Origin: Patescibacteria group bacterium
GTDB taxonomy: Bacteria; Patescibacteriota; Minisyncoccia; GCA-002772825
Assembly (NCBI GenBank): GCA_024654625.1
Contig: JANLHB010000024.1
Span: 1 to 52,809, forward strand
Direction of reading: 5' to 3'
Length of the DNA stretch: 52,809 nt
The notes below the pieces were generated by a model. The model had not been told where the DNA came from and ran no database searches. It saw only the letters and a list, made by a program, of their open reading frames with translations. This document shows, in pieces, positions 2,577 to 52,809 of this stretch. Every line of letters starts with the position of its first letter. Position 1 is the stretch's first letter. Position numbers and translations under genes: made by a program.

Positions 2577-2613
2577 GCGCCCGTAGCCCTGCCTACCAGC
2601 AGGCAGGTCAGTT
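2577..2613 (+). pseudogene. tRNA-Lys 5' fragment split by a palindrome
   Basis: The first 17 nt of the tRNA-Lys gene at 2688 are repeated here, but cut in two: GCGCCCGTAGC (2577-2587), then the near-palindrome CCTGCCTACCAGCAGGCAGG (2588-2607), then TCAGTT (2608-2613). The insertion point is inside the D-stem. A second GC-rich inverted repeat (CCGCC/GGCGG, about 2615-2631) follows directly. No anticodon or T arm follows, so this is a partial duplicate and not a functional tRNA. Confidence 0.7.
2588..2607. repeat. Palindromic element family A, inside tRNA-Lys fragment
   Basis: CCTGCCTACCAGCAGGCAGG is almost self-complementary. Close relatives are at 15844-15863 and 19717-19736, and a degenerate one lies inside ruvC near 24838-24880. 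Confidence 0.7.
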
Positions 2614-2687
2614 CCCGCCAGAGAGGGGCGGACAGGGTCCGAGCAAGGTATTAAGTTCAGTTCAATAACATTAACAATATAAATCTT

Positions 2688-2760
2688 GCGCCCGTAGCTC
2701 AGTTGGTAGAGCAACGGCCTTTTAAGCCGATGGTCGAAGGTTCAAGTCCTTCCGGGCGCA
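2688..2760 (+). tRNA. tRNA-Lys (anticodon TTT)
   Basis: A complete cloverleaf of 73 nt: acceptor GCGCCCG pairs with CGGGCGC, the D arm is GCTC/GAGC, the anticodon loop is CTTTTAA, and the T arm contains GTTCAAGTC. The anticodon TTT reads AAA and AAG. The discriminator base is A and no CCA is encoded. The gene is 18 nt upstream of tRNA-Arg and may share its transcript. Confidence 0.95.
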
Positions 2761-2778
2761 TTTTTAAATTCATTTACT

Positions 2779-2850
2779 GCTCTCATAGTTCAAAGGATAG
2801 AACGCGAGCTTGCGGAGCTCGTAATAGAGGTTCGATTCCTCTTGAGAGCA
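2779..2850 (+). tRNA. tRNA-Arg (anticodon GCG)
   Basis: A cloverleaf of 72 nt: acceptor GCTCTCA pairs with TGAGAGC, the D stem is GTTC/GAAC, the anticodon stem is CGAGC/GCTCG with loop TTGCGGA, and the T arm is AGAGG/CCTCT with loop TTCGATT. The anticodon GCG reads CGC and CGU; most bacteria use ACG (inosine) for this box, so this is a less common choice. CCA is not encoded. The 3' half is duplicated just downstream. Confidence 0.92.
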
Positions 2851-2874
2851 AAGGCAATGGCGGTCTGGAAATTA

Positions 2875-2966
2875 GCGAGCTTGCGGAGCTCGTAATAGAG
2901 GTTCGTCGTGTACTACTGAAGAGTACACGACGCCCAGCACCCTTTAGTGGTGCTTGGGCGATTCCT
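2875..2966 (+). pseudogene. tRNA-Arg 3'-half duplicate with T-loop insert
   Basis: Positions 2875-2905 are identical over 31 nt to 2804-2834 of tRNA-Arg, from the base before the anticodon stem into the T loop (TTCG). The copy is then interrupted by about 53 bp of hairpins and resumes as CGATTCCTC, the rest of the T loop and T stem. CG occurs on both sides of the insert, which would fit a 2-bp target duplication. There is no D arm or acceptor stem, so it cannot be a working tRNA. Confidence 0.75.
2904..2958. repeat. Two-hairpin palindromic element (family E), copy 1
   Basis: Hairpin 1 is a perfect 11-bp stem (CGTCGTGTACT at 2904-2914 with AGTACACGACG at 2922-2932) around the loop ACTGAAG. 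Hairpin 2 is a 9-bp stem (CCCAGCACC with GGTGCTTGGG, one bulged T, 2933-2958). A copy differing at one base over about 60 bp is at 52744-52803, also in a tRNA T loop. Confidence 0.8.
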
Positions 2967-3945: not shown

Positions 3946-4020
3946 ATAAATACTATACTTGGAAACATTGATGTGAGCAAATAAAAAGTGTAATGCCTAA
4001 ATACTTATGGCGCTTTTTAA

Positions 4021-4077
4021 ATGTATATATTTTGATGCGGTCGTTACAAAATATATACATGACCTAAACTGAGTTTT
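4021..4077. repeat. 57-bp direct repeat, copy 1, left of mosaic gene
   Basis: Identical to 5316-5372 except for one base. Each copy contains a 13-bp inverted repeat (TGTATATATTTTG and CAAAATATATACA) around the loop ATGCGGTCGTTA (AAGCGGTCGTTA in copy 2), followed by TGACCTAAACTGAGTTTT. Weaker similarity continues to about 4125, including a small hairpin AACCGA/TCGGTT (4100-4120) followed by TTAA. The spacer 3946-4265 otherwise holds only hairpins and no gene. Confidence 0.85.
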
Positions 4078-4136
4078 GAGTTTACAAAAAACCAAAAACA
4101 ACCGACTTCGGATATCGGTTTTAATCCAAATAAAAA

Positions 4137-4265: not shown

Positions 4266-5042
4266 TCAGGACTTCCGGGCCGAGGACACACCGATGTAAC
4301 CGTAGCGGCTGTAGTCCCAATAGTAGCTGACGCTCAGACCCCCGACATCGAAGCTACCGACATTGACGCGGTCACCGTCCGAGTCGAGGTCCGAACATCT
4401 GACATAGATGTTCTCGAACAGTCGCTCGCCAGTGGCGAGGTAGTGGCCGATGATAGTGTAGGCCATCACCTGAGCCTTCGGCGTTTCGTCGTTCTTGTCG
4501 AGCGTGGCCTGCTGTTCGTCCCACGTCTTCGAAGTCGAGTCCGGCACCGGGGTCTTGCAAACCAGGCGCCAGCCGACCTCGCCCTTGTCCTTCGCAAACG
4601 CCTGCTTATTGTACCAGGCGTCGTCGTGACTGAAGAAGAGCTTACGCTCGACCTTGCCACGAATGTTGAGGATCGACATCGGAAGCACAGCAACAAGGAC
4701 GTGCGTGTCCTTACAAGACTCCAACACTTCCTCAGTGAATGGCACCTCGGACAAGGCGGTGATCTGCGCTCTCGAGGGATTGACCCCGAAGTGCCTGATC
4801 GCTTCCTCGACGCCGAAGAAGTTCGCCCCCATGATCTCGCGAGCGCGAACCCACTGAGGATAAATATTTGAGAGTGTTTTGCCTCCAAGACTTTGATTTT
4901 TAGCGAAATCAGTCAGGAGAGTAAGATACGTCTCATCAAGATTAATGAGACGAGCAACATCACCAGCATCATCACCAAGCGCTCCCCAGAAACGCTGACT
5001 TGCAGCATTTAAAGTTCCCGCAGGAATTCTTTTCCAATCCAT
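4266..5042 (-). CDS. Hypothetical protein, GC-rich mosaic gene
   Basis: A 258-residue soluble protein I cannot assign. The N-terminal segment (about residues 1-60, MDWKRIPAGTLNAASQRFWG...) is AT-rich and helical; the remainder, from about residue 61 (position 4860 downwards), is encoded at roughly 60 percent GC and is beta-rich, ending in an aromatic stretch (SVSYYWDYSRYGYIGVS). No signal peptide or membrane helix is seen. A strong Shine-Dalgarno sequence AAGGAGG sits 5 nt before the ATG, unlike most core genes here. The gene lies between two 57-bp direct repeats, between mutM and the 294-residue gene, so it looks acquired. The composition break inside the frame suggests fusion of two sources. 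Confidence 0.75.
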   Translation of the reverse strand: MDWKRIPAGTLNAASQRFWGALGDDAGDVARLINLDETYLTLLTDFAKNQSLGGKTLSNIYPQWVRAREIMGANFFGVEEAIRHFGVNPSRAQITALSEVPFTEEVLESCKDTHVLVAVLPMSILNIRGKVERKLFFSHDDAWYNKQAFAKDKGEVGWRLVCKTPVPDSTSKTWDEQQATLDKNDETPKAQVMAYTIIGHYLATGERLFENIYVRCSDLDSDGDRVNVGSFDVGGLSVSYYWDYSRYGYIGVSSARKS

Positions 5043-5264: not shown

Positions 5265-5315
5265 CAAAAGTCAATAAATTGCGATAATGTCCACACACAC
5301 ATACATATTACACTA

Positions 5316-5372
5316 ATGTATATATTTTGAAGCGGTCGTTACAAAATATATACATGACCTAAACTGAGTTTT
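5316..5372. repeat. 57-bp direct repeat, copy 2, next to mutM
   Basis: Second copy of the repeat at 4021-4077 (one mismatch). Diverged similarity continues to about 5432 (GTTTACA, TATCGG, GGTTTTAATC), which is exactly at the stop codon of mutM at 5434. The distance between copies is 1295 bp and the unit contains just one gene. Confidence 0.85.
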
Positions 5373-5433
5373 ATGTTTACAGATGTTTACAAAAAATCAA
5401 GAATCGACGTCGGGTATCGGCTTCGGTTTTAAT

Positions 5434-15843: not shown

Positions 15844-15863
15844 CCTGCCTGCCGGCAGGCAGG
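15844..15863. repeat. Palindromic element family A
   Basis: CCTGCCTGCCGGCAGGCAGG, a perfect 20-bp palindrome in the spacer between the 15231 gene and the pilB-like gene. Relatives are at 2588 and 19717. Confidence 0.8.
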
Positions 15864-17624: not shown

Positions 17625-17798
17625 AATAAGAAACCACTTAAATTTTCAGGCTGGAACTTCCAACATTCGTCAAAAGTTTAGGTTTTATTTTTAGTAATCC
17701 CCCAGCTTGCCCCGCCAAGGCGGGGAGCCAAAGTACCCTTTAAACAAAACCCGATAAAGCGCAAAGCTTTTGCCTGAAAATTTAAGTGGTTTCTTATT
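17625..17798. repeat. 174-bp element with 27-bp inverted ends
   Basis: TAAGAAACCACTTAAATTTT... at 17625-17651 is the exact reverse complement of 17772-17798. The interior contains more hairpins: TGGAA/TTCCA, CCCCGCC/GGCGGGG near 17716-17731, and AAAGC/GCTTT near 17757-17770. No ORF is present. It could be a MITE-like insertion or a structured RNA of about 170 nt. The whole spacer 17577-17939 has no gene; CCCCGCC repeats also lie just outside the left end (17586-17622). Confidence 0.7.
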
Positions 17799-52639: not shown

Positions 52640-52712
52640 GCACTCGTAGCTCAGTTGGTAGAGCATCGAGCTTATACCTCGACGGTCCCAGGTTCGAGTC
52701 CTGGCGAGTGCA
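52640..52712 (+). tRNA. tRNA-Ile (anticodon TAT)
   Basis: A 73-nt cloverleaf: acceptor GCACTCG/CGAGTGC, D stem GCTC/GAGC, anticodon stem TCGAG/CTCGA with loop CTTATAC, and T arm CCAGG/CCTGG with loop TTCGAGT. The loop gives anticodon TAT, which reads AUA (Ile). Most bacteria use CAT with lysidine for this codon. CCA is not encoded. It follows the ftsH stop by 10 nt. Confidence 0.9.
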
Positions 52713-52809
52713 CTAAGATTTATGAGACCTCCGTGGTTCCAGATTCGTCGTGTACTACTGAAGAGTACACGACGCCCAGCACCCTTTAGTGGTGCTTAGG
52801 CGAGTCCTG
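52713..52809 (+). pseudogene. Degraded tRNA-Ile 3'-half copy with family E insert
   Basis: After the intact tRNA-Ile, the sequence TTATGAGACCTCCGTGGTTC...CCAGATTCG aligns loosely with the tRNA from anticodon loop to T loop. The T loop is interrupted by the two-hairpin element (52746-52800), and CGAGTCCTG then resumes the T stem exactly as in tRNA-Ile. The window ends here. The element is the same as at 2904-2958 with one base changed over about 60. Confidence 0.7.

Follow-up and report, generated by a model that had tools for sequence, protein, structure and literature searches.

Hairpin elements and small GIY-YIG nuclease genes at partial tRNA copies in Patescibacteria

The window analysed here, a contig of 52,809 nucleotides from a Patescibacteria group bacterium (JANLHB010000024.1), contains intact genes of tRNA-Lys(ttt), tRNA-Arg(gcg) and tRNA-Ile(tat), and beside each of them lies a partial copy of the same tRNA interrupted by palindromic DNA. 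Features of the three loci are listed below (+, forward strand).

2577-2587, +, tRNA-Lys 5' copy, nt 1-11, GCGCCCGTAGC, identical to the 5' end of the intact tRNA-Lys
2588-2607, family A palindrome CCTGCCTACCAGCAGGCAGG (repeat family D1), interrupting the Lys copy in its D-stem
2608-2613, +, Lys copy resumed, TCAGTT, by sequence
2614-2640, palindrome of the CCCGCC..GGGCGG type, second insert of the Lys copy, located in its D-loop
2641-2646, +, Lys copy resumed, GAGCAA, by sequence
2687-2761, +, intact tRNA-Lys(ttt) (ARAGORN, Rfam RF00005)
2778-2851, +, intact tRNA-Arg(gcg) (ARAGORN, Rfam)
2875-2905, +, nt 27-57 of the tRNA-Arg copy, which has its break in the T-loop, 31/31 identical (repeat family D10)
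2905-2959, element E of the Arg copy, whole, 55 nt
2905-2931, hairpin 1 of element E, 10-bp stem, loop ACTGAAG
2932-2959, hairpin 2 of element E, loop CTTTAGT
2961-2967, +, Arg copy, T-loop to 3' strand of the T-stem, ATTCCTC, by sequence
52640-52713, +, intact tRNA-Ile(tat) (ARAGORN)
52733-52747, +, decayed tRNA-Ile T-arm copy, left side, GTGGTTCCAGATTCG vs ACGGTCCCAGGTTCG
52747-52801, second copy of element E, two hairpins, 96% identity over 68 nt including flanks (D2)
52802-52809, +, decayed tRNA-Ile T-arm copy, right side, AGTCCTG, to the contig end

An earlier note on this DNA had described partial tRNA copies with palindromic inserts beside intact tRNAs, and with small corrections this description holds. 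The tRNA-Lys copy is interrupted in the D-stem, as the note said, but it has two inserts, not one, and its tRNA sequence amounts to about 23 nt, not 17 nt; a palindrome of the same type as its second insert is present in the tRNA-Cys 5' copy of contig C5. The tRNA-Arg copy was described correctly as a 31-nt stretch downstream of the intact gene, split in the T-loop by a two-hairpin element (E=3e-14, 31 nt, 100% identity). At tRNA-Ile, where the same arrangement had been proposed, element E does lie beside the intact tRNA, but only a decayed T-arm surrounds it; contig C44 overlaps this copy and runs on past the end of the window's contig. An artefact of assembly is excluded, since interior E copies have unique flanks and the same anatomy is found in other genomes. 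Of the two palindrome families that had been linked with tRNAs, E is tRNA-specific but family A is not, being found also at 15844, 19717 and 24839 without tRNA sequence around it; it is a palindrome of general occurrence rather than an element of tRNA genes. Two further repeats of the window may be mentioned. Direct repeats of 67 nt at 4020-4086 and 5315-5381, 96% identical and each with an inner inverted repeat, flank a 258-aa ORF (4266-5042) that has no Pfam match. A perfect 27-nt inverted repeat at 17625-17798, with a 120-nt loop containing the GCCCCGCC palindrome, looks like a palindrome with an insert at its apex.

Genes for tRNAs are classic integration sites, and insertion into an essential single-copy tRNA should kill. 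Hairpin elements of about 55 nt and a very small nuclease cassette nevertheless appear to enter tRNA genes repeatedly, with a working tRNA left, which supports the earlier suggestion of small non-coding elements in tRNA loops beside a functional gene. Six distinct copies of E occur in this genome (G000, 831 kb), at tRNA-Arg, tRNA-Ile and four further tRNA copies; wherever the contig permits a check, they adjoin tRNAs and are set in T-loop-like sequence. The copy at tRNA-Thr is degenerate, with three hairpins, and in the Val(gac) copy the loop of hairpin 1 is flipped. The genome was searched as a whole, and the stretches surrounding its tRNAs, GIY-YIG genes and Y1 genes were analysed in detail. 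Loops of hairpins 1 and 2 are near reverse complements of each other, as in two inverted hairpins. The DNA fold of E has z = -4.3 and is thus not due to chance. In an alignment of 12 sequences 98% of cells are paired, 12 of the 20 stem pairs are seen as at least two standard pair types, most pairs thus showing compensatory changes, and G-T pairs are absent from all 220 cells, so that changes in E resemble the upkeep of a DNA palindrome and not the wobble drift of an RNA. The Rfam scan of elements from tRNA loci of this genome returned no known RNA family. A covariance model detected E or E-like elements in 11 of 384 genomes of the class, with a few weak matches of ambiguous nature, and their sites are mostly T-loops of tRNA pieces, with the anticodon loop used in G037 and G104 and the 3' end of tRNA-Ser in G060 and G101.

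The composition of E, two inverted copies of one hairpin, is that of a REPIN, and one may assume that E and the other palindromes are REPIN-like sequences that a REP-associated Y1 (HUH) transposase mobilises and that by circumstance persist in dead tRNA copies alone. Five Y1 transposase matches were indeed registered in this genome, each beside its own palindromes. These palindromes differ, however, from both E and family A, neither of which flanks the Y1 genes; G037 and G101 have E or E-like elements yet no Y1 match, and E keeps to tRNA loops and is associated with a GIY-YIG nuclease. We therefore regard the Y1-based explanation as quite unlikely. The RAYT-like Y1 genes themselves (C25:15893, C16:49559, C34:10881, C39:9769 and C17:20343), with distinct palindromes at each, show the classical REP arrangement.

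Empty and filled sites in close strains, by which the earlier note proposed to judge insertion, were found at four tRNAs by comparison with the genus sibling G001. At tRNA-Trp element E is present in the sibling and absent in G000; at tRNA-Val(gac) the situation is opposite, and the downstream gene is homologous in both genomes. At tRNA-Val(tac) G000 has a GIY-YIG cassette and G001 none. At tRNA-Cys G000 has another element, designated B, while the tRNA of G001 runs directly into the spacer found in G000 behind the 3' copy, which means that the 3' copy holds the original flank. Occupied and empty alleles of one site, a mark of SegB-type elements, are thus seen in pairs between the two genomes.

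Partial copies accompany 59 of the 182 distinct tRNAs in the loci analysed, and their polarity is strict: all 35 copies of tRNA 3' parts lie downstream of the intact tRNA and all 22 copies of 5' parts upstream of it (57/57). After de-duplication the breakpoints fall into the T-loop in 22 of 32 cases (p=1e-14) and into the D-loop in 12 of 20 (p=4e-7), those less than 12 nt from the tRNA end being invisible to BLAST, which needs about 12 nt; the clustering in loops is still significant outside the own genus. Breakpoints in the T-loop are mostly at C56/G57, and the 3' duplications cover about 18 nt from the T-loop to the tRNA end. One could consider such copies as debris of tandem duplication and decay, in which palindromes gather since dead DNA tolerates them. 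The presence of family A and CCCGCC-type palindromes away from tRNAs, as well as the decay of many copies, agrees with this idea. Clustered breakpoints and uniform polarity speak against it, as do the nearly constant position of E in the tRNA loop, the isotype-specific nuclease gene inside such units and the presence or absence of inserts at the same site in sister genomes, making debris an improbable explanation.

Two movers suggested by the earlier note found no confirmation in this material. The 3' duplications resemble classical att sites, as would be expected if a tyrosine recombinase integrated the elements at tRNA 3' ends in the manner of genomic islands. No tyrosine-recombinase family match was obtained in G000 or G001, the inserts comprise only about 84-500 nt, and neither sites in D- and anticodon loops nor 5' duplications fit this scheme, which we consider highly improbable and, for G000, largely refuted. 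Reverse transcription, i.e. RNA-mediated copying from tRNA ends, would be in line with duplications that end at tRNA termini and with the tRNA-like appearance of element B. It has hardly any probability in our estimation: the two genomes gave no reverse-transcriptase match, breakpoints are in loops and stem arms evolve as DNA palindromes. Besides, copying from one tRNA end fails to explain the whole set because both 5' and 3' parts are duplicated.

Inserts unrelated to E are present in the same places. One of them, element B, is found downstream of tRNAs of at least 12 isotypes and is conserved across families. At its ends it has one inverted and one direct copy of the adjoining tRNA's own 3' end; inside it a hairpin separates the acceptor part from the T-stem part and the T-loop holds two more, so that it looks like a reduced tRNA composed of acceptor stem and T-arm. 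Outside G000, 20 of 25 B loci have an intact tRNA on the same strand 27-158 nt upstream. This conserved placement, together with arms that match the 3' end of that tRNA and the likeness to acceptor stem plus T-arm, allows one to imagine the elements as structured RNAs, kept by the host as tRNA-like decoys that tune processing of the upstream tRNA. Their presence or absence at the same tRNA in sister genomes argues against a needed function, the stems of E change without G-U intermediates, unlike typical RNA, and no Rfam family was matched. We take this explanation to be unlikely overall; it is stronger for B, for which a host RNA function is possible, than for E. Element B, found at the same site, has a GIY-YIG gene near it in only 2 of 29 cases. 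An array combining these elements was observed at tRNA-Val(tac) of G000 (C32:1220-2240), where a 5' copy with a GIY-YIG ORF is followed by the intact tRNA and then by alternating 3' copies that bear palindromes, E and two B elements.

The elements are accompanied by a GIY-YIG nuclease, encoded by a tRNA-associated ORF of about 80 aa. None was found in this window, whose E copies are without ORF and so lack a GIY-YIG domain of their own. Three tRNA-linked proteins match PF01541 with E of 5e-16 to 3e-18, and the residues Y, Y-x-G, R, H and E of the catalytic domain are invariant in 12 aligned proteins. All four small GIY-YIG ORFs listed in G000 lie within about 130 nt of a tRNA. Among 100 GIY-YIG ORFs, which are the better-scoring ones of 55 genomes, 44 have a tRNA within 300 nt, in 43 of these 44 cases on the same strand, and tRNA density around the ORFs is 1.49/kb at 0-150 nt vs 0.055/kb at 1.2-3 kb, a 27-fold difference. 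Many of the ORFs extend into the 5' end of the tRNA, and at two loci (C32 and L092) the stop codon is inside it. In one subfamily, represented by 80 loci from many Patescibacteria lineages, the nearest tRNAs are almost all tRNA-Gln (0.84 tRNA/kb within 400 nt vs 0.02-0.05/kb beyond); these loci stand for the tRNA-Gln lineage only, and statements on GIY-YIG genes in general are based on the count of 100 ORFs. Adjacency to a target gene and specificity for it, as expected of a SegB-type element, are both seen, in the 27-fold enrichment and in the tRNA-Gln-specific subfamily. On the protein tree, built from few columns and with many open forks, the side of the ORF (before or after the tRNA) changes 6 times vs 24.0 in shuffles and tRNA isotype 24 times vs 35.4. 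No group I or II intron was matched in tRNA loci of this genome or in 14 GIY-YIG loci at Rfam thresholds, which may miss degenerate introns.

Element E and the nuclease are directly linked in five genomes (G001, G037, G060, G101 and G104), where E or an E-like element immediately precedes the GIY-YIG start codon. The cleanest unit, that of G104, consists of nt 1-36 of tRNA-Leu, split in the anticodon loop, an E-like double hairpin, an 84-aa ORF and intact tRNA-Leu. The unit of G001 is composed of tRNA-Arg 1-56, E, the ORF and tRNA-Arg, and that of G037 occupies the anticodon loop of tRNA-Arg. The hairpin variant tracks the nuclease subfamily: CTTTAGT loops go with the proteins of G001 and G037, which are 60% identical, and loops of the CTACGTG type with those of G060, G101 and G104, the G060 protein being 65% and 54% identical to the other two. 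In G000 every E copy stands alone, and none of the four small GIY-YIG genes of this genome was found to be closely related to the E-linked nucleases.

Based on this arrangement we consider it moderately probable that E is a solo, ORF-less relative of GIY-YIG homing cassettes, which enter hairpin loops while the tRNA stays whole. In its full form the cassette would include the tRNA 5' part, the double hairpin, the endonuclease ORF of about 80 aa and the intact tRNA. Three steps may be envisaged. The nuclease would cut a tRNA gene in a hairpin loop, i.e. in the T-, anticodon or D-loop. Repair from the filled allele would then copy in the cassette plus that portion of the tRNA which makes the gene complete again, so that a whole tRNA results along with a truncated copy still joined to the original flank. 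Finally, ORF-less hairpins such as E may persist or spread in the loop of the dead copy, as remnants or, like MITEs, by movement in trans; E would be the leading structure of the cassette and, when alone, its satellite. Movement of E in trans stays putative because its copies in G000 are solo and none of the four GIY-YIG genes there is close to the E-type nuclease. The sequences themselves document the anatomy, polarity, breakpoints, empty and filled sites, the linkage and pairing of nuclease with tRNA and the linkage of E with the nuclease, whereas cleavage, homing by repair and trans movement of solo E are inferred. Several points speak against homing. The intact tRNA beside the cassette usually equals the presumed target sequence, so that self-cutting would have to be avoided in some way; B is rarely accompanied by GIY-YIG genes (2/29), E occurs in only 11/384 genomes of the class, and a single-domain GIY-YIG protein of 80 aa could be structure-specific instead of sequence-specific.

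At several loci an intact tRNA is enclosed by the two parts of another tRNA of its isotype, which is split in the D-, anticodon or T-loop. At L172 (Gln) and L259 (Arg) the inner intact tRNA clearly diverges from the split resident, and short palindromic sequence is present at the bounds. Judged by sequence, these two look as if a replacement allele had been inserted, which suggests rescue by the carried tRNA, though the history of nested tRNAs cannot be read with certainty from one genome.

It is tempting, if rather doubtful, to suppose that small GIY-YIG cassettes and their ORF-less hairpin satellites form one class of mobile element and recognise DNA hairpin loops as such, be it in tRNAs, at the ends of tmRNA or at the tips of palindromes between genes. 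At tRNA genes they would then be natural cleave-and-rescue elements, by which the resident gene receives in its loop a replacement tRNA that is sometimes a divergent allele. Repeated entry of nuclease cassettes and hairpins into tRNA genes with preservation of a working copy would explain why small GIY-YIG genes are common in Patescibacteria, would provide a natural parallel to cleave-and-rescue gene drives and would open a route for replacement of tRNA genes by foreign alleles; loop-directed cutting by GIY-YIG enzymes would be directly testable with the 80-aa proteins. On the whole, the pattern suggests that these tiny uncultured bacteria harbour selfish genetic elements of a kind that has received little notice.

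The closest known system is SegB, a phage GIY-YIG enzyme that cuts inside tRNA genes at sites enriched in RAWTSGAAC (PMC13096335). On the other strand this motif reads GTTCSAWTY and would correspond to the T-loop, apparently matching the C56/G57 breakpoints. As in SegB-type free-standing homing endonucleases of T-even phages, the nuclease is encoded beside tRNA genes, and probably no intron is needed; in contrast to them, the present units are cellular, encode proteins of about 80 aa and start with double hairpins, partial tRNA copies lie on a fixed side, ORF-less solo forms exist, and cassettes reside also in ordinary palindromes. Some Tremella mitochondrial introns likewise carry a part of the host gene, which stays whole, and the insertion site sets the length of duplication (PMC7315562); these are protein genes of mitochondria, whereas tRNA genes are affected here, no intron was detected and hairpins mark the insertion point. 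In the same bacteria, GIY-YIG-encoding insertions unlike group I/II introns were described in another type of structural-RNA gene, that of CPR rRNA, with no mention of tRNA genes (PMC11270868). REPINs and MITEs of RAYT and IS200/IS605 systems share with E short inverted hairpin pairs without ORF, but E has another partner enzyme, is confined to tRNA loops and is not linked to the Y1 genes present. Islands inserted by tyrosine recombinases also duplicate about 18 nt between the T-loop and the end of the tRNA, but no such recombinase was found in this genome, the inserts measure only about 84-500 nt and all three tRNA loops are used. Free-standing GIY-YIG homing at phage tRNA genes (PMC13096335) and non-intron GIY-YIG insertions in CPR rRNA (PMC11270868) are already known; no report of GIY-YIG cassettes combined with hairpin satellites in cellular tRNA genes was found in the literature searched, the coverage of which is incomplete, and novelty is unproven.

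GIY-YIG genes are found at other structured sites as well. Among 53 ORFs without a near tRNA, 26 are located between inverted-repeat arms (counted at alignment score >=12) vs 0.8% of random positions in the same loci; the arms may be either a target hairpin or ends that belong to the element itself. At L094, L096, L100, L105 and L109 the ORFs are placed between arms of intergenic palindromes, for instance CCCGTTAGAGA..TCTCTAACGGG, and at L105 an ORF-less copy of one palindrome adjoins its GIY-YIG cassette. At L098, L114 and L115 they adjoin tmRNA, the 3' end of which is duplicated at L098, with one copy on each side of the GIY-YIG ORF.
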